A stretch of 41,679 bases of DNA, taken from a virus. The stretch lies in IMG/VR virus record IMGVR_UViG_3300045283_000101, positions 1 through 41,679 of that record. One strand, given 5' to 3'. The notes beneath the pieces are model-generated. The model was not told the DNA's origin, made no database searches, and saw only the letters and a program-made list of their open reading frames with translations. The translations under genes and the position numbers were made by a program. Each line of letters opens with the position of its first letter. The first letter of the stretch is position 1. Below are positions 3,836 through 41,679 of this stretch, piece by piece.

Positions 3836-3996
3836 GCGGGCTCCTTTCGCTGCTTGTCGATCTCGTCGAGACCAGGAAACAACGGCCCCTCATACGCCCG
3901 ATAGGAGCCGTCTGGGTGGAGCCATGCACGACGCTCGCCGAGCGGCTTATCCGGCCGTTGCGGGGCGGGCTGGAACAGTTGAAGCTGCTCAATCAC
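3832..3996 (-). CDS. Short hypothetical protein downstream of the methyltransferase
   Basis: The 54-aa product starts at a GTG (3996) that overlaps the methyltransferase stop as GTGA and is preceded by GGAG about ten bases upstream. A longer frame from 4092 would overlap the methyltransferase by 100 nt and is not preferred. The sequence has the repeated QLQLFQPAPQRP opening and a YRAYEGPLFPGLDEID core, common in tiny phage proteins of unknown function. Confidence 0.55.
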   Translation of the reverse strand: MIEQLQLFQPAPQRPDKPLGERRAWLHPDGSYRAYEGPLFPGLDEIDKQRKEPA

Positions 3997-5884: not shown

Positions 5885-6190
5885 TCACGCAGACGACTCC
5901 AAAGCGCGGCTTGCGATGCCCACGGCCGACGCCAGCCGTCGCACGCCCTCTCGGCCTATTGCGTCGGTCTTCGGCGGGTCGCGCCAGAGCAGCACGATCT
6001 CGCGGAGCGCGGTTTCTAGTTCATCGATGCGGGCCTGATGGTCCGGGATCGCTGCGACGGACGCGCGCAGGTCGCGAACCTCGGCTTCGAGTTCGACGAT
6101 CCGATCCGCCGCGGCGCTGAGGGTCGCGTAGGTGGGTCCTTCGTGACGATAGTTGGGCAGAAGGGCGCGGATGGCGTCCTGGACGATCAT
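5885..6190 (-). CDS. Coiled-coil hypothetical protein, first gene left of the integrase
   Basis: The 101-aa product has a long heptad-like helix (residues about 25-65, with ADRIVELEAEVRDLR and then ARIDELETALREIV), so it is probably a dimer. It starts at an ATG (6190) with AGGAGG seven bases upstream. The integrase start on the other strand is only 14 nt away, so there is no room for a promoter between the two genes. Its 3' end shares 17 bases with two other places in this region. No catalytic motif is visible. Confidence 0.65.
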   Translation of the reverse strand: MIVQDAIRALLPNYRHEGPTYATLSAAADRIVELEAEVRDLRASVAAIPDHQARIDELETALREIVLLWRDPPKTDAIGREGVRRLASAVGIASRALESSA

Positions 6191-6199
6191 TGCGAGGCC

Positions 6200-6242
6200 T
6201 CCTGATGGCGGTGTTTATCGTCCGCACCGAACGACGCCCCGG
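6200..6242. repeat. Direct repeat of the integrase 5' end, copy 2
   Basis: This copy includes the functional integrase start. The two mismatches to 5810-5852 are at 6213 and 6234. The unequal halves beyond the repeat, with full integrase here and an early stop in copy 1, show which copy is intact. Confidence 0.9.
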
Positions 6243-7215
6243 CATCATCCGATTCGTGGTCAGGTGGCAGCAGACAAGTCTCCACCGCCAGGTGCATCTC
6301 GGCAGCTTCAAAACAAAGACGGAGGCAGAACTCAGGAAGCAGTGGGCGGAGCGCGAGCTCGCCGCCGGCCGCACCCCGGATCGGACGGTGATCGGTGGCG
6401 CGACGCATCGCCGCCTCGTGCGAGACGTGGTGAGCGAGTGGTTGGAGACGCGGCGTGCGGATATGCGGCCTGCGAGCCTCGAGTCGATCACCGACCGGAC
6501 ACGCCCCGTCGTCGACCTGCTCGGGCATCTCGACGCGTCCGAGGTCAGCCCGCGTGACGTTCAGACGATGATCCTCGCGTTGAAGGATCGTGGCGAGGCG
6601 AATCGCACCATCCGTGGCCGGGTAAGCGTGCTGCGGATGGTGCTCGACTATGCCGGCATCGACCCGAACCCCGTCGACGCACGCAGCGTCAAGAAGCCGC
6701 CGAGTACCGGGAAGCGCGTCACGATCCCGACACCCGACGAAGAAGACCTGATCCTGTCCAGGCTGAACGCGGAGCATCGTGCGATCGTCGAATTCATCGG
6801 CGCCACGGGACTCAGGATCAGCGAGGCGGTGAACCTGTCGTGGAGCGACGTCGACCTCGAGCATGAAGCGATCCGCGTGCAGGCGTCCAAGACGGAGGCG
6901 GGTGAACGATGGGTGCAGAGCGAACCCGACGCACCGTTCACCCTCCCTGAGCGGCCCGAGGGTGCGCAGGATTGGCAACGCGTGTTCCCCGTTGCGAGTC
7001 GCGGCGCTGTCGGACAGGGCATCCTCCGCGCCTGCCGCGGAAAGCAATGCGACGAGGCGACGCGGACGTTCGGTCCCCACTCTTGGCGACATCTCCACGC
7101 GAGCCGGTGTTTGCGGAACGGGATGGACGTCGTCCGCGTCGCAGCTCGCCTCGGCCACTCCAACCCACAAATCACGTTGCGGGTTTATGCGCACATCTTG
7201 GTCCCGAGGCGTTAG
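6205..7215 (+). CDS. int: Tyrosine site-specific integrase
   Basis: The 336-aa product carries an arm-type N-terminal domain (1-60), a core-binding SAM-like domain (about 70-150) and a catalytic domain with the expected residues: Arg204 (GLRISEA), a probable Lys229, His292 and Arg295 (HSWRH), His318 (LGHSN) and nucleophile Tyr328 (RVYAH). It would integrate the phage into the host chromosome, so the phage is temperate. I chose ATG 6205 because GAGG lies seven bases upstream; a TTG at 6190 is the alternative. The stop overlaps the stop of the convergent gene. An excisionase-like gene lies 280 nt away. Confidence 0.96.
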   Translation: MAVFIVRTERRPGIIRFVVRWQQTSLHRQVHLGSFKTKTEAELRKQWAERELAAGRTPDRTVIGGATHRRLVRDVVSEWLETRRADMRPASLESITDRTRPVVDLLGHLDASEVSPRDVQTMILALKDRGEANRTIRGRVSVLRMVLDYAGIDPNPVDARSVKKPPSTGKRVTIPTPDEEDLILSRLNAEHRAIVEFIGATGLRISEAVNLSWSDVDLEHEAIRVQASKTEAGERWVQSEPDAPFTLPERPEGAQDWQRVFPVASRGAVGQGILRACRGKQCDEATRTFGPHSWRHLHASRCLRNGMDVVRVAARLGHSNPQITLRVYAHILVPRR

Positions 7216-7499
7216 CACGACGGCTCCGCGAACGCGAACACCGGCACTACCTCGCCGCCCATATCGACGTGGACGGTGCAGATGTCGAACAGGCCGAACG
7301 CGGCCCAGTCGCACCCGCCCAGGCTTCGATCGACGCGGCCGATACACTCCTGCACGGCGCGCTGAGGGTCGACGCCGGCACGCTGGAAGTCGGCAGGAGA
7401 CGCCGCATTGCCGCAATTCGGGCAGACGAACCGACAGTCGAGCTTGCCGCGCACAGCCATGTCGGACTGCCAGTCGGCAAGCGGGGTACTGACGGTCAT
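7212..7499 (-). CDS. VVA0879-like phage protein with zinc ribbon
   Basis: The 95-aa product has FVCPNCGNAASPADF, then a conserved-looking segment VQECIGRVDRSLGGCDWAAF ending GLFDICTVHVD. This arrangement of a CxxC, a GVDP turn, ECIGR and GCDWAAFGLF matches small proteins annotated as VVA0879 family in many phages, whose function is unknown. Four Cys in two pairs could bind a metal. The ATG at 7499 overlaps the excisionase stop as ATGA. It is the last gene of the 11385-7212 operon. Confidence 0.7.
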   Translation of the reverse strand: MTVSTPLADWQSDMAVRGKLDCRFVCPNCGNAASPADFQRAGVDPQRAVQECIGRVDRSLGGCDWAAFGLFDICTVHVDMGGEVVPVFAFAEPSC

Positions 7500-7690
7500 G
7501 TCTGCCTCGTTGTCGTTCCGAGGCCGAGCGCTCGCTCGAAATCCGAGCGCCTGACGAACACGCGCCGCACACCAGGCGGCTTCACCACGTCGCACTGCCG
7601 CATAATCCGCATGACGGTCGACTTCGGCAGGCCGGTCTCTTCGCAGGCCATGCGTACATCGATGAGGGGAGGGATGACGCGCTTCGTCAC
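7496..7690 (-). CDS. xis: Excisionase-like MerR-type HTH protein
   Basis: This 64-aa protein is a single winged-helix/HTH_17 domain: LIDVRMACEETGLPKSTVMR followed by a VRRVFVRRSDFERAL wing. Size, basic charge and position 280 nt from the integrase fit a directionality factor that bends attachment-site DNA and favours excision. It is expressed from the early operon, away from the integrase, as expected if excision belongs to induction. A plain transcription regulator is the alternative. Confidence 0.72.
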   Translation of the reverse strand: MTKRVIPPLIDVRMACEETGLPKSTVMRIMRQCDVVKPPGVRRVFVRRSDFERALGLGTTTRQT

Positions 7691-8314: not shown

Positions 8315-8436
8315 GACGGCGCCTCGTCGAGCATCTTCTTGATCGCGGCGCGTTCGTCGCGGATGCCGCGAACGACGTAGCCGGCCAGGAACCACGTCAC
8401 CATCAGGATCGTGTCCCACGCCAGGTTCAGCATCAT
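8311..8436 (-). CDS. 41-aa membrane peptide
   Basis: The product begins MMLNLAWDTILMVTWFLAGY and ends in a charged tail (RDERAAIKKMLDEAPS). One transmembrane segment covers about residues 3-22. I chose the ATG at 8436 because it overlaps the exonuclease stop as ATGA and has GGTGGG just upstream. A start at 8511 would add a second hydrophobic segment (66 aa) but overlap the exonuclease by 79 nt. Together with the 33-aa gene it forms a pair of tiny membrane proteins. Confidence 0.5.
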   Translation of the reverse strand: MMLNLAWDTILMVTWFLAGYVVRGIRDERAAIKKMLDEAPS

Positions 8437-9302
8437 GCTTCCCACCACGAACACGACGGCCGGTACGAGCAGTACGAGCACGCCCAGGGATGCGCCAACG
8501 CGCCAGGCCACGGATCATCCGGCCCATACAACGCATAGAACGACGCCAGCTGGTTCGCGAGCTGCACCACGTACGCGTCGATCATCCGGCTCGCCGCCTG
8601 CCACAACACCAGGTAAGGATCCGTCAACGGCGTGAACACCGCCGGCCGCTGCGTCTTCGCGCTCACGTGCCACTCGAGCGGCTTACAGAGCTCCGCGCTA
8701 TAGATACGTCCCTGCACCACCCAATCCGGCTTCGGCTTCGACTCGCGCCGCTTGCTGGTCTTCCGCTCGATCACCTTCTGCTGCGTCACCACATCGACGT
8801 ACCCGATCACCGGTACCGGTACTCCGGCGACGCGACGCTCGAACTTGTGCTCCACCGCCACCGGGCTGATGCTCGGACTGACCTGCTCGTGATACACCTT
8901 CACAAGCGCCGCAGCCTTCGTCTTCAAATCGCCGGGCTTGTCGTCGTCCCAGTCGACTTCCGATGATCCGCCGCACTCATCGATCGCAGCCGTCCACGCA
9001 TCCGAGAAGAAGTCGAGCGTGTCCGAACTCGACGGGAGTCTGCCGCTGAGGAGCTTTTGTTCGAGGCCCCACCCGACGGCCTTGTGATCGGCGGCGCCCC
9101 AGACCAGTGCGCCGGCTGGGCGACTCTTCTCGCCCTTCAGGTAGCGGCGCCGAAACTGCTCCGGACACCGGTCAAGCATCCCCAGGCTCGTCGCGCTGAG
9201 ATGCTTGATGACCGTTGGCCACGCTGCTGCGTCGACACCTCGCAGCGGCGGACGCATCGCATCCTCGAGCGTGATGATCACCGGCTTTGCGGCAACAGCC
9301 AT
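8433..9302 (-). CDS. Cas4/RecB-like PD-(D/E)xK exonuclease with Fe-S cysteines
   Basis: The 289-aa product has the nuclease core GYVDVV (Asp170) and VIERKTSK (Glu179, Lys181), plus an upstream CPEQFRRRYLKG segment (Cys46) and a C-terminal CSYC-x5-C (275, 278, 284). Four such cysteines form an iron-sulphur clamp in Cas4, AddB and related phage exonucleases. It would resect DNA ends for phage recombination or replication, with the SSB-like protein encoded just upstream. The ATG at 9302 follows a GGAGG; a GTG at 9305 is the alternative. It is not part of a CRISPR locus. Confidence 0.85.
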   Translation of the reverse strand: MAVAAKPVIITLEDAMRPPLRGVDAAAWPTVIKHLSATSLGMLDRCPEQFRRRYLKGEKSRPAGALVWGAADHKAVGWGLEQKLLSGRLPSSSDTLDFFSDAWTAAIDECGGSSEVDWDDDKPGDLKTKAAALVKVYHEQVSPSISPVAVEHKFERRVAGVPVPVIGYVDVVTQQKVIERKTSKRRESKPKPDWVVQGRIYSAELCKPLEWHVSAKTQRPAVFTPLTDPYLVLWQAASRMIDAYVVQLANQLASFYALYGPDDPWPGALAHPWACSYCSYRPSCSWWEA

Positions 9303-9469
9303 CACGCCTCCACATCATCGTCGGCGTCGGCCTGTACCGGATCATCGTCCACCTGATCCACGAACCGCTGCCAGCGCGCATCTTCGTAGCTGCAGCGCGC
9401 GGTCCGATCATCCTCCGCGCGCGAGTATTCCTGCTCCCACCGCCACTGATCCCAATCGATACGCATCAT
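9302..9469 (-). CDS. Small acidic Trp-rich hypothetical protein
   Basis: The 55-aa product begins MMRIDWDQWRWEQEYSRAED and ends in a run of Asp and Glu. It has five Trp within 55 residues. The start overlaps the HNH gene stop as ATGATG, and its TGA overlaps the exonuclease ATG. The acidic character would suit a nucleic-acid mimic or nuclease partner, but this is only a guess from composition. Confidence 0.55.
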   Translation of the reverse strand: MMRIDWDQWRWEQEYSRAEDDRTARCSYEDARWQRFVDQVDDDPVQADADDDVEA

Positions 9470-9840
9470 GCTGTGATCTCCTTGTGATGCTCGCGGACGT
9501 GGCACGACTGGCAAAGCCAGACGACGTCCAGCGGCTTCGTGTAGTCCTCGTGGTGCGCTTCGATGCGATCAGCCGATCCGCAGCGCGCACACGGATCGGG
9601 GGTAACTTTCCCTCTCCGGACGAGTTGCCTGATTTTCCTCCGCGCCGCGAACTTCATGCGGACGGCGGGTTCTTCGTATCGGCGCCGGTCGTACTCGCGG
9701 AGTTCGTCGCCGGCTTCCTGCCTGCGCTTCTTGACAGACGCCGCGGCGTAGCCAGGTCGAAGCGCATACCAGCTCCGCATGTAGATGCGGTGCTTGCATT
9801 TCGCGCACTCTCCGCACAGGCAGGAAGCCGGTCGTCCCAT
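9466..9840 (-). CDS. HNH-type endonuclease with N-terminal zinc cluster
   Basis: The 124-aa product has an N-terminal CLCGECAKC cluster, a basic helical middle and a C-terminal CARCGSADRIEAHHEDYTKP ... LCQSCHVREHHKE module. CxxC pairs with the HHEDY centre are typical of HNH nucleases annotated in many phage early operons. It may nick or cut DNA in recombination or act as a homing enzyme. The TGA of the SSB-like gene overlaps the ATG at 9840. Confidence 0.8.
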   Translation of the reverse strand: MGRPASCLCGECAKCKHRIYMRSWYALRPGYAAASVKKRRQEAGDELREYDRRRYEEPAVRMKFAARRKIRQLVRRGKVTPDPCARCGSADRIEAHHEDYTKPLDVVWLCQSCHVREHHKEITA

Positions 9841-10370
9841 CAGATGGTGACCCGGAACGTGTCGTCGTTGGCAAACGGAATGTCCCGATCGCTCTCGGGC
9901 TGCGGAGTCGCGTCGCCGTCGCCGTTCTGCGAGACTGGCTGCGGGTTCTCGTCGCGGACACCACGAATCTTGAAGTACGTGTGGCCCGACTTGGTCGGCA
10001 ACGCGTGCAGGAAGCACGGTCCGACGAAGCTGTTCTCCTCCACCGCGACGGCCTTCAGGATCTTCGCCATCTGATCCTTCCGGTCATCATTCGCACCGAA
10101 CGCGAGCGTCCACAACTCCGCGTTCTTCGCCCAGCCCGGCGCGGTCAGCGTGATCCTGGATCCGTCCTGCAGCGCGGTCGTCTTCCCGGGTGCGCCGAAC
10201 CGGATCACGTAGAACGTCTGCGGATCGAACTGGCCGGTCCGCTCGACGGTGCCGCCGACGATGAAGAACGGGTGCTGGTTCTCCACCAGCTCCTTCTTGC
10301 CGTCCGCGTCGATGAACGGCGGGAGGTCTCCTGCGCCGCCGTCGGCGCCGATGTCCTGGAGTGTGGTCAT
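9840..10370 (-). CDS. Putative single-stranded DNA-binding protein
   Basis: The 176-aa product has a strand-rich core (FFIVGGTVERTGQF, FYVIRFG, RITLTAPGW, HTYFKIRGVRD) consistent with an OB-fold, then a Pro/Gln/Asp-rich flexible tail containing ESDRDIPF. Bacterial SSBs carry an acidic tail ending in DIPF that recruits partners; here the motif is followed by another ten residues. Its place ahead of HNH and exonuclease genes fits a recombination set. The fold is inferred from the pattern and not proven. A duplicated leader sits in front of the start. Confidence 0.5.
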   Translation of the reverse strand: MTTLQDIGADGGAGDLPPFIDADGKKELVENQHPFFIVGGTVERTGQFDPQTFYVIRFGAPGKTTALQDGSRITLTAPGWAKNAELWTLAFGANDDRKDQMAKILKAVAVEENSFVGPCFLHALPTKSGHTYFKIRGVRDENPQPVSQNGDGDATPQPESDRDIPFANDDTFRVTI

Positions 10371-10399
10371 GGCCTTGGTGCCTCCTTGGCTTCGTGGCC
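10368..10399 (-). promoter_or_regulatory. Duplicated translation leader, copy before the SSB-like gene
   Basis: The 32 nt spanning the start codon and its upstream region match 10690-10722 except for a one-base gap. On the - strand it contains AAGGAGG, then ten bases, then ATG, flanked by GGCC on both sides. The copy gives the SSB-like gene its own strong ribosome site, unlike most genes here, which rely on overlap. Confidence 0.8.
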
Positions 10400-10407
10400 T
10401 AGTTGGG

Positions 10408-10692
10408 TTAGTAGTCGACGTGTTCGAGGTCTTCGAGCGTGAGAATCGTCAGGCGACGAACCACAGCCACGGTCGCGGTGGTGCGACGCAAGTCCGCCTG
10501 CGCGTCGTAGTTGCTGAGTCCCTCGGCCGCCACAACTGCGCTATCGAGTTTCCTGCCGGCAGTGGTGAGCTCGGCCATTACCTTCTTGAGCAACCGGTGC
10601 GCGTCGTTGATGGACGCGACGAGATCGGAGCGCGTGACGATGTCGGCTTCCTCGCCACGGATCCGGATCAGGTCTTCAGGGGTCAGAGTCAT
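10408..10692 (-). CDS. Helical hypothetical protein sharing a leader with the SSB-like gene
   Basis: The 94-aa product begins MTLTPEDLIRIRGEEADIVT and has a long central helix (ASINDAHRLLKKVMAELTTA) and a basic/valine C-terminal part. A GGAGG ribosome site lies ten bases upstream of the ATG at 10692, within the duplicated leader. No family is recognised. The shared leader suggests expression at a level similar to the SSB-like protein. Confidence 0.65.
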   Translation of the reverse strand: MTLTPEDLIRIRGEEADIVTRSDLVASINDAHRLLKKVMAELTTAGRKLDSAVVAAEGLSNYDAQADLRRTTATVAVVRRLTILTLEDLEHVDY

Positions 10693-10722
10693 GGCCTTGG
10701 TGCCTCCTTGGGCTTCGTGGCC
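10690..10722 (-). promoter_or_regulatory. Duplicated translation leader, copy before the 94-aa gene
   Basis: This is the partner of 10368-10399. It reads AAGGAGG, a ten-base spacer and ATG, and has one extra base in the upstream part. Confidence 0.8.
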
Positions 10723-10735
10723 GGTGATGGAGGTG

Positions 10736-10819
10736 CTAGCCGCCTACGTAGCGGGGTGCTGCTGTCAACAGGAACAGGGCGAGCATCAGCAACAGGTACA
10801 GCGCGAAGCGCAGTTGCAC
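10736..10819 (-). CDS. 27-aa membrane peptide
   Basis: A GTG at 10819 with GGAAGG upstream opens a 27-codon frame beginning MQLRFALYLLLMLALFLLTA and ending in APRYVGG. Almost every codon ends in G or C (CTG, CGC, TTC, GCG), a strong coding sign in this genome. It is a single hydrophobic helix. A competing 55-codon frame (10689-10856) overlaps both neighbours neatly but loses the third-position bias in exactly this stretch. Function unknown. Confidence 0.5.
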   Translation of the reverse strand: MQLRFALYLLLMLALFLLTAAPRYVGG

Positions 10820-10855: not shown

Positions 10856-11044
10856 TCAGGAGCGCCGAAGAGGTGAGGTGGGCGGCAGCGGGGCTGCTAG
10901 CCCGCGTCGCCAGGACGCGTGATCTCCCGATGCCCTCGGAAGGTCGCCGCCGCCCACCATTCTCCGGATCGCATCTGCCGCACCCGGCGGATACGTCCGG
11001 CCAGCCGTCGCGGCAAGCCGCGCCAGGCTGAAGGTTGTCGTCAT
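10856..11044 (-). CDS. Small basic hypothetical protein after the XRE regulator
   Basis: The 62-aa product starts at the ATG (11044) overlapping the regulator's stop. It begins MTTTFSLARLAATAGRTYPP and is Arg- and Pro-rich toward the end. Third-position GC is high through most of the frame. No domain recognised; a small DNA-contacting or unstructured protein is possible. Confidence 0.5.
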   Translation of the reverse strand: MTTTFSLARLAATAGRTYPPGAADAIRRMVGGGDLPRASGDHASWRRGLAAPLPPTSPLRRS

Positions 11045-11385
11045 ACCGCGCGTCGGCAGGCGCCGGCGTAGTCGGTGCTGACGATGTACTGACGCTTGCG
11101 CGCGGCCGTCGCGCGATGCTCCCCGTCGAGCTTCGCCAGCAGGCGAACGGCCTCGAGCACGACGGGGTGAGGCTCAGGGGAGGGCAGCGCCTCCGTGAAG
11201 AACTCGACCGGATGGCCGGTCGCGGCTGCGATCCGCTCGATGCTCTCGAGGTTCGGCGTCATCACGCCGCGTTCCCACTTGCTTGGAGTCAGGGCGCTGA
11301 CTCCGACCAGGCGCGCGAAGGCCTCCTGCGTGAGCCTCCCGCGAGCTGCTCGGACGCGCGTCCCGATCGTGTCGGTGCTCTGCAT
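11041..11385 (-). CDS. XRE-family HTH regulator at the head of the early operon
   Basis: The 114-aa product has a classic HTH at about residues 8-62 (VRAARGRLTQEAFARLVGVS, then SKWERGVMTPNLESIERIA) and a short C-terminal region, too small for a peptidase-type CI. It is read from a leaderless promoter that overlaps two operators, so it is probably autoregulated. As the first gene of the leftward early operon it could be the Cro-like protein, with the rightward gene at 11470 as the repressor. The roles may be reversed; the sequence does not settle it. Confidence 0.85.
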   Translation of the reverse strand: MQSTDTIGTRVRAARGRLTQEAFARLVGVSALTPSKWERGVMTPNLESIERIAAATGHPVEFFTEALPSPEPHPVVLEAVRLLAKLDGEHRATAARKRQYIVSTDYAGACRRAV

Positions 11386-11392
11386 GTAGTCA

Positions 11393-11402
11393 AGGCTAGT
11401 CG
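11393..11402. promoter_or_regulatory. Operator 1 (degenerate dyad)
   Basis: The sequence aggCTAGTCG retains the right half and centre of the CGACTAGTCG dyad. Its centre is at 11397/11398, 18 bp from operator 2, over the -10 box of the leftward promoter. Confidence 0.6.
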
Positions 11403-11410
11403 TTTAGCCG

Positions 11411-11420
11411 CGACTAGTCA
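11411..11420. promoter_or_regulatory. Operator 2 (near-perfect dyad)
   Basis: CGACTAGTCa matches nine of ten positions of the palindrome CGACTAGTCG. It overlaps the -35 box of the leftward promoter. Its centre is 35 bp from that of operator 3. Confidence 0.7.
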
Positions 11421-11444
11421 ACCATCAGCGACCATTGCGTGTCT

Positions 11445-11456
11445 GCGACTAGTCGC
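11445..11456. promoter_or_regulatory. Operator 3 (perfect 12-bp palindrome)
   Basis: GCGACTAGTCGC is a perfect 12-bp inverted repeat. It lies 13 bp before the GTG of the rightward XRE gene, where it could control that gene's promoter. I see no clear -35/-10 pair for rightward reading. Confidence 0.75.
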
Positions 11457-11469
11457 GCACCTTTCGGAG

Positions 11470-11814
11470 GTGGCCAGCACCCGCACGCCGACAGCGCTCG
11501 CGATCCGCGCCTACCGCGGCCGCAGCAAGCAGAAGGAAATCGCCGCCCGCGTCGGCGTCGACAGCCAGACGATCAGCCGGTGGGAACGCGGCATCAGCGA
11601 ACCCGGCCAGGAGAACCGCGAACGGCTACTCGAGCTCGGCGTCGAGTTGCCGGCTATCATCGAGCCGGCGGCGGAGATCGATCGTCTCGAGCGAATCGAG
11701 GCGACGCTGGAGCGGATCGAGCTCGCCGTCACCACGTTGCGCGATGAGCTACGCGAGCGACCTGCAAAAGGTCACGCAGGACGCGAACGAAGGCGTGCCA
11801 CCCGGAGCGGGTGA
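11470..11814 (+). CDS. Second XRE-family HTH regulator with C-terminal coiled coil
   Basis: The 114-aa product has an HTH (about residues 10-55: SKQKEIAARVGVDSQTISRW, then ERGISEPGQENRERLLEL) followed by a helical coil (EIDRLERIEATLERIELAV) that probably mediates dimers. It is the only gene in its direction here and ends seven bases before a convergent gene. A monocistronic regulator divergent from the early operon is the usual place for a lysogeny repressor. The start is a GTG at 11470; GGAG directly touches it, so a leaderless or near-leaderless message is likely. Confidence 0.82.
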   Translation: MASTRTPTALAIRAYRGRSKQKEIAARVGVDSQTISRWERGISEPGQENRERLLELGVELPAIIEPAAEIDRLERIEATLERIELAVTTLRDELRERPAKGHAGRERRRATRSG

Positions 11815-26103: not shown

Positions 26104-26487
26104 CTAGCGCTCCTCGATCGGGGGAATCTTCGGCAGCAACCCCTGATGCAGCGCCTGGAAGTACTCGGTCGACACCTCAGCGCCGCACACCGGACAACAC
26201 CCCTGCATCACGCGTTGCCGCCACGGCAAGACCTGGCCCGGCTTGTCGTACACCTCAGCGAACCGCTTCACGGAGCTCGCGCTGGGGCGTTCGGGGAATA
26301 CCTCCATGCATTCCGCGCACGCCGTGCCATCCGCGAGCCGCTTCAGCGTCTCGAATTGCTTCCGGTCATGCAGGATCCACCGGACCCCGCGCCGACCGGT
26401 CCGCTCCACCGTCTCGTCGTAACACTCCTCAACGGCGGCCAGGATCGGCTCCCGCCACTCTTCCCGCTGACGAATCGTGATCCTCAT
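26104..26487 (-). CDS. Zinc-finger-like hypothetical protein in the tail operon
   Basis: The 127-aa product has an acidic helical start (MRITIRQREEWREPILAAVE), then ACAECMEVFPERPSASSVKR and CCPVCGAEVSTEYFQALHQG: two CxxC pairs about 45 residues apart, likely one zinc site. The start overlaps the glycosyltransferase stop as ATGA. It could be a regulator or a folding partner. No known match from memory. Confidence 0.6.
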   Translation of the reverse strand: MRITIRQREEWREPILAAVEECYDETVERTGRRGVRWILHDRKQFETLKRLADGTACAECMEVFPERPSASSVKRFAEVYDKPGQVLPWRQRVMQGCCPVCGAEVSTEYFQALHQGLLPKIPPIEER

Positions 26488-28085
26488 GCTGCGACCCTCA
26501 TCCCTGCTCGCGTCCGGATCTCGCGAAGCGCCTTCCGGTACAGGTACGCCGTCTTCTGAGCAGTCCGGTTCGTGACGACATGCTTCCGCGCAGCCTGGGC
26601 GAGCTTCAGCCGGAGCGTGTCATCGACTATGAGCGTCTCGATCGCTTCCTCCCACTGCTCCGGCGTGTCCGCGAGCAGGCCGGTGCGGCCATGCTTGACG
26701 GTCGCGTACGGCTTCGCGTCGGATCCGATGAATGCCGCGCCGGCCATGCTCGACTCGAGCCACTTCAAGTCTGATTTGCCGCGCCCCATCTCGTGATTGC
26801 GGATCGGCGCGATCGAGATATCGAACGACGCCAGCAGTGCGCGGTACGCGGCGAGGCTGATCGTCTGCGGCTGCTGCACGTACTCGAAGTCCCACGACGC
26901 CGGCGCTGGGAAGTTCGTCACCAGCATCACCTCAACGTCGGGGTGCCGCTTCTTCACGCGCCGGAGTGCTTCTGCGACGATTGGCGCGTCCCGCTCATGC
27001 TGCCGCGAGGCTGCCCACCCGATCCGCAGCTTCCCATCACCCATCGGCTCACGCACCCTGCGCCAGTCAGCCTCCAGAATGCTGTTGCGGAGCAGGTAGA
27101 CGTGCGGGTTATAGTCGGCGTACAGCTCGGCCAGGTGCGGCGTTGCGCAGAACACGGCGGGACACCGCTGCACGAATTCGACGTGATCCGGCTGCTGGTC
27201 GTACCACTGGTTCCCGACCGCGCGAAGATTCGAGATGTACAGATCCGGCACGAGTTGTTCGGACACGTACGCGTCGTCGACGTCGCCGATCACGAGCACC
27301 TCATCCCCGAACCGGTTCAGCACGTCGAGCGCTTCGGAGGCTGGGTGCATCGCGATGATCGCGTCGCATCCGAAGTAGCCGTGCGGGATGTTCCCCGCCA
27401 CGATCCCCGGGAGCGGCTCCGCCGGCACGCTGCCGCGTACATACGCGACACCAGGGCTAGCGCTCGGCATGAACACGGCCTCCACTGGGTAGCGTTCCAG
27501 CCGGTCGCCGAGGATCTCCTTCAGCTGGTCTTCTTGCGAGAACGATTCGTCGCGCGCTGCGTGTTCGATCCGTTGCGTCAGGCTCTGCTGATGCTGCCGA
27601 TACCGGTACTCGGCGGGAAGGATCCGTTCGAACCGGTACCCGGCCTTCGCGATCCGGTTCATCAGGTCCCAGTCCTCGACGACCGCCATTCGCCAACCGC
27701 CAACGGCGCGGAGCACGCTGGTCTTTACGAGGAACACGCCGCACGTGTTCCGCCACTGGATGATGTGCCGCCCATAATGCGGCGGCTCGAACGTCTGTTC
27801 GCGATCACCGAACAGTTCCATCCTCGGGTAGACGCCGTCCGCGTCGCCGATCGCATCCTCCAGCATCTCCAGCATCCCCGGCCCGGCGACGTCATCCGCG
27901 CCGCACACGAACGTGTACGGCGTCGTGATCTCATCGAGCGCGACGTTCAGCGCGGCGTGCATCTCGCGCTTCCCGTTGTTCTTGGCGATGATGAACGGCG
28001 TGCCGTTCGGGAAGCTGTTCAGGCATTCGGTAAGCCACGCTTCGTTGCGGCCATCCCACGGGATCAGGATCGTGGACAGCGTCAC
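26484..28085 (-). CDS. Two-domain glycosyltransferase (GT2 + GT4-like)
   Basis: The 533-aa product combines two parts. Residues about 1-195 form a GT-A type 2 glycosyltransferase: opening STILIPWDGRNEAWL, a CGADDVAGPG metal/UDP motif near 61-70 and VVEDWDLMNRI near 136. Residues about 300-510 look like a GT-B (GT4) domain: KLRIGWAASRQHERD, EVMLVTN and KSDLKWLESSMAGAAFIGSD with the usual acidic loop. Both domains would transfer sugars, possibly in sequence. The GTG at 28085 overlaps the epimerase stop. It lies among structural genes, so virion glycosylation is an attractive inference. Confidence 0.82.
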   Translation of the reverse strand: MTLSTILIPWDGRNEAWLTECLNSFPNGTPFIIAKNNGKREMHAALNVALDEITTPYTFVCGADDVAGPGMLEMLEDAIGDADGVYPRMELFGDREQTFEPPHYGRHIIQWRNTCGVFLVKTSVLRAVGGWRMAVVEDWDLMNRIAKAGYRFERILPAEYRYRQHQQSLTQRIEHAARDESFSQEDQLKEILGDRLERYPVEAVFMPSASPGVAYVRGSVPAEPLPGIVAGNIPHGYFGCDAIIAMHPASEALDVLNRFGDEVLVIGDVDDAYVSEQLVPDLYISNLRAVGNQWYDQQPDHVEFVQRCPAVFCATPHLAELYADYNPHVYLLRNSILEADWRRVREPMGDGKLRIGWAASRQHERDAPIVAEALRRVKKRHPDVEVMLVTNFPAPASWDFEYVQQPQTISLAAYRALLASFDISIAPIRNHEMGRGKSDLKWLESSMAGAAFIGSDAKPYATVKHGRTGLLADTPEQWEEAIETLIVDDTLRLKLAQAARKHVVTNRTAQKTAYLYRKALREIRTRAGMRVAA

Positions 28086-28849
28086 GCGACGAGTACCTCG
28101 GCGTGCACGTCATGCGGCGACGTGATCTGATTGAACGAGCGGCCCGGCACCTTCACGATCGTCTCGTGTGGTGCATGCAACGGCTCCACCACACGATCAC
28201 CCCTGCGTCGTTCGACCAGGTGAATCGTGTCATCCGGGTCGACGTCGCGATCCCGGCACCACTTGCGCGCGACGTTCACCATGTGATGCGGCGCACCCGG
28301 ATTCGGTGCGTACCGGCCACTCTGAATCGACAACAGGTCCGCGAGGAACGTGATCGCGTCGGCGAGCGTGATGAAGTACCGGGTGCACGCGGCGACATCG
28401 ATCCGGCTCGTCTCCTCGAACTGCTTGTCCCACGCCTGGAACACGTTCCGGTTCGACTCGCGCACGTTGTACAGGCGTCCGACGACGCCGTGCGCATTCA
28501 GCACCATCCGCTCCGCAATCAGCTTCGACGCGCCGTACACCGTCTCCGGCACCGCCGCCTTGCACGTCGACGCGAGGATCACGCGACACCCGAGCGCCAA
28601 GGCGTTGCGGGTCCCTTCGATGTTGACGTGCTGCGTCGCGAACGGATGATCCTCGCCGCTCGGCGCGTGCTTGTCGGCCGCCAGGTGATACACGACGTCC
28701 GGCACGTACCCGATATCGATCGGGTACCTGACGTCTGCGAGCGGATTCATTCCTAGGTCGAAGCATTCAACACCATGACCCCGCGCTTCGAGCTCGCTGA
28801 TCAGGCTCGGTCCGAGACTTCCGGCGCCTCCGGTGACGAGGATCCTCAT
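28082..28849 (-). CDS. NAD-dependent sugar-nucleotide epimerase/dehydratase
   Basis: The 255-aa product begins MRILVTGGAGSLGPSLISEL, a Rossmann glycine motif (GGAGSLG, 7-13), and has the catalytic YGASK (Tyr105, Lys109) with an upstream ILASTC strand. It belongs to the extended SDR family and would modify a nucleotide sugar, for instance by epimerisation or dehydration. It is somewhat short of the usual 300-350 aa, so the C-terminal substrate domain is reduced. It is directly upstream of and coupled to the two-domain glycosyltransferase, which could use its product. Confidence 0.87.
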   Translation of the reverse strand: MRILVTGGAGSLGPSLISELEARGHGVECFDLGMNPLADVRYPIDIGYVPDVVYHLAADKHAPSGEDHPFATQHVNIEGTRNALALGCRVILASTCKAAVPETVYGASKLIAERMVLNAHGVVGRLYNVRESNRNVFQAWDKQFEETSRIDVAACTRYFITLADAITFLADLLSIQSGRYAPNPGAPHHMVNVARKWCRDRDVDPDDTIHLVERRRGDRVVEPLHAPHETIVKVPGRSFNQITSPHDVHAEVLVA

Positions 28850-32642: not shown

Positions 32643-33259
32643 CCATCAGCGCTCCCACCCGGCTTCGACGCAGTCAACGTGACGGACAAGTCACCGATCG
32701 CGTTCCAGTAGTGCTGCTTCGCGAATGCTTTCACCTCATCCGTGCGATGCTCGAACACCGCGCTGATGCCGCTCACGATGTTCGCGATCTTGAAATCACA
32801 CCTGACCGGGTAATGATCGAGGCCCTGCAGTTTCCGCCATCCGGCGTCGAGGTAGAACCATGTCGTCTCGTGGATGTACCGGGTATGCGTCGGATCCCAG
32901 AATGCGCGCTCGTTGATCGCGTACGGATGCTCCAACGTGACTTCGGCGCCGTCCGCGCAGATGCGGTGCACCTCGTCGAAGAACACGAAGAACCCGTCGC
33001 GGCCCTGGTACGCCGGCATGTAGTGCGGAATATGCTCAACGAGATGACTCGCATGCACATGACTGACGCTGTTATCAGCGAACGGCCACGGTTCGCCCGA
33101 GAACAAGTCGAATCGGGTGTCAGCGTCCGCGCCGGGAGCGTTGTCGACGCCGTGATACGAGTCGCGCTTCCGTTGTCCGCAGCCGAGGTCGAGCTTCAGG
33201 AGGTGGCCCTGGTCGGCGAGCGTCGACACGACCGGCTTCTTCCGCGCTCGAGTGGTCAC
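32639..33259 (-). CDS. Class I SAM-dependent methyltransferase
   Basis: The 206-aa product has motif I LDLGCGQRK (23-31), an Asp-containing loop (GVDNAPG), and the SHLVEHIPH helix typical of type 11/FkbM-like methyltransferases. The substrate is not evident. It is coupled to the GT-A glycosyltransferase upstream (GTG at 33259 overlaps that stop), so a sugar or glycan is a likely target. Confidence 0.82.
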   Translation of the reverse strand: MTTRARKKPVVSTLADQGHLLKLDLGCGQRKRDSYHGVDNAPGADADTRFDLFSGEPWPFADNSVSHVHASHLVEHIPHYMPAYQGRDGFFVFFDEVHRICADGAEVTLEHPYAINERAFWDPTHTRYIHETTWFYLDAGWRKLQGLDHYPVRCDFKIANIVSGISAVFEHRTDEVKAFAKQHYWNAIGDLSVTLTASKPGGSADG

Positions 33260-33978
33260 CAGACGACGCCTGTGGAGAAGTCGAGGTGTCCGACGCGGAC
33301 GTTGGTGTCGACGGCGATCCGCATCCCCGCTTCACGCATCGCCTTACACGCATACAGGTCCTGCGTCATCAGGCCCTTGCCTTCACTGCCGGTCAGGGTC
33401 TGGAAGATCGGCCGCTCGAGCCGCTTCAACGCGGAGATGCGGAACAGTGAGCAGCCCATCCCGATCCCGTTCGTCTCCTGCAGGCCGTGCTGATCAGGAT
33501 GGATCTGCTGCGGCTCGAAACTGACCGGAACACGTGCCGGATCACCGTAGATCATCGGAGCCCCCGCCTCGCCCTTCGTGAAGTAGAGGCTTCCAACCGC
33601 GTCGTACGGACCCTTCTCGATCGCCTCGACGAGCTTGATCAGCGCATCCGGCGGCACCAGGTTGTCGTGCTCGAGCGTGAGCAGGTACGACCACTCGTTG
33701 AGCTGCGAGTTGAAGATCACGTCGAGCGCGGCCTCGTATGCAGATCCGACTTCGGCTCGCTCGACCAGCATCCGGTACGCCGGCTGGTTCATTGGCGTCA
33801 GCAAGCTCCACCACGTCTCCACGATGCGAGGCTGGATTGGTCCGGTGACGGGTGCGACGATCACGGTTGACAGGTTCGCGTAGCCACGCTGCCGAGAGAG
33901 ACGCTTCTGCGTCTTCACGAGGTCACCGTTATGCGCGCCCGGGTCGTAGGCGAGGTGGATGATCGGCTGGTCCGACAT
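33256..33978 (-). CDS. GT-A family glycosyltransferase
   Basis: The 240-aa product has the compact layout of a GT2/GT-A enzyme: NLSTVIVAP strand, VERAEVGSAYEAALDVIFNS helix, LLTLEHDNLVPPDALI with EHDN as the metal/nucleotide motif (103-106), GMGCSLFR near 173 and a LDF-type end. It could add a sugar to a virion protein or carrier. It begins (ATG 33978) right after the stop of the head-fibre gene and is coupled to the methyltransferase. Confidence 0.82.
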   Translation of the reverse strand: MSDQPIIHLAYDPGAHNGDLVKTQKRLSRQRGYANLSTVIVAPVTGPIQPRIVETWWSLLTPMNQPAYRMLVERAEVGSAYEAALDVIFNSQLNEWSYLLTLEHDNLVPPDALIKLVEAIEKGPYDAVGSLYFTKGEAGAPMIYGDPARVPVSFEPQQIHPDQHGLQETNGIGMGCSLFRISALKRLERPIFQTLTGSEGKGLMTQDLYACKAMREAGMRIAVDTNVRVGHLDFSTGVVW

Positions 33979-39150: not shown

Positions 39151-39333
39151 CTAGTTCGCCAGGTATGCGAGCTCGGGCGGCAGCGACACCTCATCACCCG
39201 ACTCGTTGTCGACGCACAAAAGCAACGACCCTTGATCGTCGCGGTAGATCGTGACGAGCGGCGTCTCCACCATCGTCGCACCCTTCGGCACGCTCGGCTT
39301 CCTCGACGACGCCGTCTTGGTCTTGTCAGCCAT
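39151..39333 (-). CDS. Small basic/acidic head-operon protein
   Basis: The 60-aa product starts MADKTKTASSRKPSVPKGAT, followed by a strand pair (PLVTIYRDDQGSLLLCVDNE) and a short hydrophobic end. Lengthwise it is only a minimal domain. Located between the Gln-rich protein and the portal-proximal genes. Function unknown. Confidence 0.55.
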   Translation of the reverse strand: MADKTKTASSRKPSVPKGATMVETPLVTIYRDDQGSLLLCVDNESGDEVSLPPELAYLAN

Positions 39334-40161: not shown

Positions 40162-41679
40162 GCCGAGATCCTCGGAGCCCGCTCCGAAATCGAACCCGTA
40201 TTCCTCGCATACTCACGAAGCGCCGTCTTCCTCTGCGCCTTCACCCTCAGTGGCCGCTGCGCATGCTCACGCCAAACCTCCAGCGCGCCGGCATGCGACA
40301 TCACCCTGTCGTCATGCGTCCCGCTCTGCGCCGCCGGCTTGCCGTTGGCGTGCACGACGAACGTCCGCATCTCCCGCTTCAACCCGTCATCCTTCAACCG
40401 CTCCGGATGATCACGCAGCATGCTGCGAAGCGACGACAGCATCACGGGCCTCGTCGTCTCCGTCGTATCCCACCCGATCTCATCCGTCCACGCCTGCGTA
40501 TACGAATCCAGTTTCCGGTGCGTATACAGGTTCGGATACGTCAACGAGCGGTACAGCGTCGCGATCGTCGCAACGCCGTACCCTCCCGTGTTCTCGACCG
40601 CTATCAGCGCGGTCTTGTAGAGGTAGCCGAGTCGTGCGAGTTCGATGCCGTACAGGTCAGGATCGATCCGCGCGTGATACGCCGCGACCTGCTCACCCGT
40701 CTCGCGGTCGACGACGCTCGCTGCACAGTAGTCATCCTTCTTGCCGATCGGGCGTGCGTCGTGCGTGTCCAGGGTGACCTTGCCAGCCACGTCGCCGAAC
40801 ACGATGTACTCACGACCCGGCTGGGGAACCTGCCAGATCCGCAACGAACCCTGCTGATTTGGTTCGAAGCGGAGGCTGGAGCCGCCGCGGATCGGGTCAC
40901 CCTCGATGCTGCCGATCCTCGAGGCATCAGTGGGATGGAACCGCTCGAGCAGTTCATGCGGGAAGTACGGCCGGCCTGAGGTGAGGAATGCGACTTCGGG
41001 ACTGTCGGGATACTCCTGATCGAAGATCGCGGCATCCCCGCCGCAAAGGTTCTGTATCGCCCAGCGTCGCCACGCGAGTTGCGGAGCACCTACGCCCCTC
41101 GTGATGAGTGAAAGCTCGCGAGGCGTCCATTCAGGGGCCTTCCCGAGCATCTCACCGGTACGAGCAGCGTCGAGGGTGTAGTCGTCGAATTCGAACCACG
41201 GCGCGAAGAAAAACTCGTAATCACCCTGCTGGTTCATCGCCTGCTCGCACCGCTGATGGAACTCGTCGCCGATCCCGTTCGCGGTCGACTCGAGGAAGAT
41301 CCACGTGCTCGGAGCGTCAGGGATGATCTGCAGCAGCGCCGTCAGCGTCGACTTCGGATCAGGCCAGTACGCCACCTCGGAACCATGCAACGCGTTCGCG
41401 CCGGTCGCACGACCAACACCTTCCCTGCCGCCAGCCGTGAACGTGCGCAGCGACGAGCCGTGGCGGAACACGATCCGCTTCCCCTGGATCCCTGTCCGCT
41501 TCTCCGGCCGCAACGCCGACGGCAACTCGTCGACCATCTGCTCCGTCATCCCATGCAGGTACTGCGACGACTCGTCCAGGTGCGCACCGGTCACACCGCG
41601 GAACGTACGCGTCACGCACGCCGCATGCGCAAACCTGCCTTGGATCAGCGTCGAGACGCCCATCCGCCGGCTCTTCAAC
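40158..41679 (-). CDS. terL: Terminase large subunit, main part (start lies at 415)
   Basis: This is the C-terminal bulk of the 560-aa terminase; the N-terminal piece is at 1-415. In full-length numbering the P-loop-like KSRRMGVST is at about 56-64, Walker B HGSEVAYW at about 152-159, the coupling motif ESTANG at about 184-189, and nuclease acidic residues occur in VFGDVAGK (Asp350), AVENTGG (Glu416) and HDDR (about 510-511). These match Terminase_6/6C-type packaging enzymes. It pumps DNA with its ATPase and cuts it with its RNase H-like nuclease. Confidence 0.93.
   Translation of the reverse strand, partial: LKSRRMGVSTLIQGRFAHAACVTRTFRGVTGAHLDESSQYLHGMTEQMVDELPSALRPEKRTGIQGKRIVFRHGSSLRTFTAGGREGVGRATGANALHGSEVAYWPDPKSTLTALLQIIPDAPSTWIFLESTANGIGDEFHQRCEQAMNQQGDYEFFFAPWFEFDDYTLDAARTGEMLGKAPEWTPRELSLITRGVGAPQLAWRRWAIQNLCGGDAAIFDQEYPDSPEVAFLTSGRPYFPHELLERFHPTDASRIGSIEGDPIRGGSSLRFEPNQQGSLRIWQVPQPGREYIVFGDVAGKVTLDTHDARPIGKKDDYCAASVVDRETGEQVAAYHARIDPDLYGIELARLGYLYKTALIAVENTGGYGVATIATLYRSLTYPNLYTHRKLDSYTQAWTDEIGWDTTETTRPVMLSSLRSMLRDHPERLKDDGLKREMRTFVVHANGKPAAQSGTHDDRVMSHAGALEVWREHAQRPLRVKAQRKTALREYARNTGSISERAPRISA
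41426..41679. repeat. Right copy of the 254-bp terminal redundancy
   Basis: This is the same as 1-254 apart from a at 41553 versus g at 128. Removing either copy leaves a continuous terL frame, so the window holds one whole genome cut inside terL. Confidence 0.95.

Follow-up and report, generated by a model that had tools for sequence, protein, structure and literature searches.

A candidate lysis-lysogeny switch with CTAG-centred palindromes and a predicted leaderless early promoter in a probable actinobacteriophage

Two small divergent regulator genes and the short gap between them most probably form the lysis-lysogeny switch of an uncultured phage, in which one HTH protein, likeliest the rightward one, would repress a leftward leaderless early promoter through three palindromes, with the leftward protein in a Cro-like role. 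The region combines the features of a repressor/Cro-type system: a divergent HTH pair that shares one gap, repeated palindromes over a promoter, and an integrase in the same genome. It is very likely an ordinary kind of system, and what is new is the sequence of its putative binding sites. An earlier, sequence-only reading had described the operator set as previously unnamed. Consistent with this, a string search of the open-access literature for the operator returned, judging by title, no paper on a phage repressor.

We analyzed a stretch of 41,679 nucleotides, referred to here as the window, that makes up the viral record IMGVR_UViG_3300045283_000101. Its ends carry a 254-bp repeat (1-254 and 41426-41679, 99.6% identity, one mismatch), so the genome is probably circular or terminally redundant, with a length of about 41.4 kb. 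A DNA search against named phages gave no match. The phage is high-GC, and its host is probably an actinobacterium. A tyrosine integrase is encoded on the plus strand (6190-7215; phrog_1, E 9e-48; PF00589, 74.6 bits), which makes a lysogeny switch plausible, and the phage is probably temperate. We rejected an integrase-less reading that arose from the ORF at 6187-7572, as that ORF is an antisense frame of the true gene.

Two divergent HTH genes and their neighbors

The leftward regulator (11041-11385, minus strand, 114 residues) begins with an ATG at 11385 and heads a leftward operon. It belongs to the HTH_3 (XRE) family (PF01381, 31.6 bits against a Pfam cut-off of 23), and its closest solved relative is the DNA-binding domain of the P22 C2 repressor (E 4.5e-5). 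The rightward regulator (11470-11814, plus strand, also 114 residues) is a single gene that begins with a GTG at 11470 and matches the same Pfam family with 34 bits (cut-off 23). Both the sequence and the HTH_3 cut-off confirm the proposed pair of divergent XRE genes, and the 84 bp between them (11386-11469) constitute a shared intergenic control region. In a structure model of the rightward protein (mean pLDDT 73), a helix spanning residues 66-96 lies C-terminal to the HTH; the model of the leftward protein (pLDDT 53) was too poor for use. Neither 114-residue protein has a Pfam match to an S24 peptidase domain, which sets the pair apart from the lambda CI type. Because both proteins lack S24, lambda-type self-cleavage is unlikely and induction would take another route.

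To the left of the switch, the minus strand carries short ORFs and a PD-(D/E)XK recombination exonuclease (8433-9305; PF12705, E 2.6e-12) that is part of the leftward, presumably early operon. To the right, a holin and an NlpC/P60-like enzyme are encoded convergently with the rightward gene. With early-type genes on the minus strand on one side and convergent lysis genes on the other, the leftward promoter is likely an early one, and the rightward gene is left as the lone repressor candidate. Directly downstream of the leftward regulator, a possibly coding 62-codon ORF (10856-11044, minus) starts with an ATG that overlaps the regulator's stop (ATGA); its comparison with a sister phage showed no third-position excess of changes.

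Several other features of this genome caught our attention. An unlisted short ORF in the early operon (10736-10819, minus; VQLRFALYLLLMLALFLLTAAPRYVGG) resembles a single-span membrane peptide and is nearly identical in the sister phage. Also on the minus strand, the genes at 9840-10370 and 10408-10692 have near-identical leaders, GAAGCC(C)AAGGAGGCACCAAGGCC-ATGAC, at 10371-10395 and 10693-10717. The second gene of this pair is missing from the sister, which fits loss or gain between repeats. Glycosyltransferase and nucleotide-sugar epimerase genes (26484-28849 and 33256-33978) are found within the structural gene block.

Palindromes and a leftward promoter in the gap

Three predicted operators lie in the gap, all centred on CTAG, with centre spacings of 18 and 35 bp. 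Operator 1 (AGGCTAGTCG, 11393-11402) covers the -10 box of the leftward promoter and differs from CGACTAGTCG at two positions, while operator 2 (CGACTAGTCA, 11411-11420) covers most of the -35 box and differs at one. Operator 3 (11446-11455) is the perfect CGACTAGTCG and extends to a 12-bp perfect palindrome, GCGACTAGTCGC (11445-11456), whose end is 13 bp from the rightward GTG. These counts bear out the earlier description of three versions of one palindrome, one of them perfect. A possible fourth half-site, TTGACTAC (11386-11393, minus), sits in the spacer that separates the ATG from the -10 box, shares TTGACTA with operator 2, and is unchanged in the sister phage.

Candidates outside the gap were discarded. 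The next best weight-matrix hit, at 39331, was tried as a fourth operator and proved to be the stop/start overlap of two genes. Paired CGACTAGTC sites occur in nine viral contigs, all in unrelated settings and none with this regulator pair: they are low-GC repeats with different genes, one repeat array, and one probable coding site. Separately, a 153-kb viral contig contains, at 3906-3954 and around, an array of GACTAGTCG-like repeats that is apparently non-coding and unrelated to the switch. An Rfam search gave no match.

The leftward promoter, TTGACT-17-TAGCCT (11393-11421, minus), has its -35 box at 11421-11416 and its -10 box at 11398-11393. The pattern TTGAC-N17..19-TAnnnT occurs once on the two strands of the 41.7-kb window, where 0.3 occurrences are expected, or 0.05 if the pattern must end 5-9 nt before an ATG or GTG. 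The proposal of a leftward promoter with putative operators over both boxes is upheld, and the pattern is unique in the window. A stricter, E. coli-type scan found no promoter; it misses this one because TAGCCT is a poor -10 box by the E. coli consensus. The TAnnnT form of the -10 box is usual in actinobacteria, and TAGCCT fits it.

The -10 box ends 7 nt before the ATG at 11385, within the 6-8 nt that mark a leaderless start. No Shine-Dalgarno sequence was found before this ATG, no alternative ATG, GTG or TTG lies close to where the HTH domain begins, and the sister phage keeps the same arrangement. This is the geometry that had been read as a leaderless start, and we predict that the leftward mRNA probably begins at the ATG or no more than one or two nucleotides from it. 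A clear Shine-Dalgarno sequence is missing from most genes of the phage, and the lack of one before this ATG therefore counts for little. Leaderless messages are not a new feature of such switches, as the cI and cro mRNAs of PY54 are both leaderless, as mapped by RACE (PMC4488713), and lambda cI mRNA is cited there as leaderless. For the rightward gene, we found no consensus promoter and no TAnnnT -10 box within the gap, and a promoter of this kind would resemble those that need help.

Conservation in a sister phage and geometry in a remote relative

A search for relatives by terminase yielded one sister phage and one metagenome-assembled genome (MAG) contig, and no more. The sister (IMGVR_UViG_3300045282_000110, 41,004 bp) has both regulators. 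The leftward one is 97% identical, and the rightward one about 78% identical over residues 1-88, with changes at the three codon positions of 10/9/18, the third being highest. Around its recognition helix, the rightward protein is near-unchanged between the two phages (SQTISRWERG / SQTVSRWERG). The sister's rightward regulator also has about 23 additional residues in its C-terminal tail; its HTH and long helix align gap-free.

The gap of the sister has equal length and 17 changes, which fall on 2 of 36 operator positions and 15 of the 48 others (Fisher p=0.005; p=0.04 in the half outside the promoter alone). Operator 1 has no change, and operators 2 and 3 have one each. The promoter and the three sites are thereby preserved in the sister, and TTGAC-N17..19-TAnnnT is single in its genome too. 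Shared immunity would be predicted for the two phages.

The remote relative is JACDGR010000001.1, an Actinomycetota MAG contig of 43,119 bp with a 127-bp end repeat and a terminase that is 51% identical. It also encodes an integrase and an exonuclease. At the same map position, it has two small, divergent HTH-like genes with no recognizable kinship to the window's pair; the HTH matches of the leftward one are all weak, and the rightward one has no Pfam match. A search for the palindrome in relatives, as had been suggested, thus gave a divided answer: all three sites are present in the sister, while the gap of the MAG relative lacks the CTAG palindrome pair and has GTTGNCAAC instead. This palindrome, chosen post hoc like that of the window, has two copies in 43 kb (0.8 expected), both within the gap and 30 bp apart. 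One copy covers the -35 box of TTGACA-17-CATGAT, which ends 6 nt before the leftward gene's ATG, again the spacing of a leaderless start. The same geometry in other letters would be expected of an exchangeable immunity module, although this is one case, viewed post hoc.

Alternative readings, mechanism and known switches

It is very improbable that the palindromes arose by chance and that only the promoter and the genes are real. We chose the motif post hoc, after inspecting the sequence, and its loose form (up to two mismatches) shows no clear enrichment in the window, where 43 matches against 33 expected come close to chance, so that the motif by itself is no proof. However, just 11 of 20,000 random 84-mers contained a three-site family built on a perfect 10-bp palindrome, ACTAGT is confined in the window to operators 2 and 3 (11413 and 11448), and the sites are conserved in the sister. 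CTAG as such is scarce in the window, at 33 occurrences against 136 expected. We also regard it as improbable that the regulator module has no part in lysogeny and is an autoregulated early operon of the kind found in lytic phages with HTH genes. Virulent phages too have small HTH genes, the rightward protein has weak matches in 17-kb Microbacterium phages, and we found no prophage copy of this switch. Against these points stands the intact-looking tyrosine integrase, which is under purifying selection between the window phage and the sister (73 synonymous and 16 nonsynonymous codon changes) and has a counterpart in the MAG relative.

Which protein is the repressor is a separate matter, and the assignment is uncertain because it is the leftward protein that lies nearer to P22 C2. 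If the roles were reversed, the leftward protein would act as prophage repressor and control its own synthesis from the leaderless promoter, like lambda cI from PRM, with the rightward protein as its antagonist. The better conservation of the leftward protein in the sister would suit this arrangement, as would the leaderless lambda cI mRNA cited in PMC4488713. We nevertheless consider it unlikely, since the exonuclease and other early-type genes trail the leftward gene on the same strand and a lysogen would express them, whereas the rightward gene is solitary and convergent with the lysis genes. On gene arrangement, the rightward protein is the likelier repressor, though it is small and lacks both S24 and a consensus promoter.

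With the rightward protein as the likeliest repressor, the switch would work as follows. In a lysogen, the repressor would bind as a dimer to each of the three palindromes centred on CTAG, and occupation of operators 1 and 2, on the -10 and -35 boxes, would keep the leftward early promoter off. Upon infection or induction, this promoter would fire, and its mRNA would extend through the leftward HTH gene to the early genes, the exonuclease among them. As the first product of this transcript, the leftward protein would probably act as Cro, competing for the same family of sites and damping its own promoter. Operator 3, nearest to the rightward GTG, would be the obvious place to block repressor synthesis.

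The arrangement is reminiscent of lambdoid cI/cro systems, especially PY54, in that HTH genes diverge from a gap with palindromic operators and a promoter abuts the start codon. It differs in its 114-residue repressor candidate without a protease domain, in its three related sites at spacings of 18 and 35 bp, and in the phage itself, which is high-GC and probably actinobacterial. In the CI-Mor systems of TP901-1 and phi13, the consensus half-site is AGTTCAYR, compared to CGACTAG here, and a Mor-like function is a feature of those systems. TP901-1 also has an operator, OD, outside the gap, in contrast to the three sites here, which are all inside it. Cluster A mycobacteriophages likewise pair an actinobacteriophage immunity repressor with repeated sites, but their stoperators are many, asymmetric and spread over the genome (PMC9283540). 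The three near-palindromic sites described here are confined to a single gap.

Our findings leave the general picture of phage switches unaltered. They provide a compact, well-defined set of predicted operators for a group of uncultured phages, and a concrete case in which to test which member of a pair of tiny HTH proteins acts as repressor. We found these operators in only one other phage; that their sequence sets immunity specificity is thus a fair prediction, drawn from two genomes. The rule of a gap palindrome plus a unique promoter ending at the ATG might give the immunity types of related phages. We tentatively raise a broader possibility, on which we would not yet rely: that a family of actinobacterial podovirus-like temperate phages has a fixed switch geometry, which combines a leaderless early promoter, its -35 box in a palindromic operator and two small HTH proteins lacking a protease domain, and that unrelated regulator pairs, each with its own palindrome, have been exchanged into it. 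If this is true, the immunity types of such phages could be deduced from sequence.
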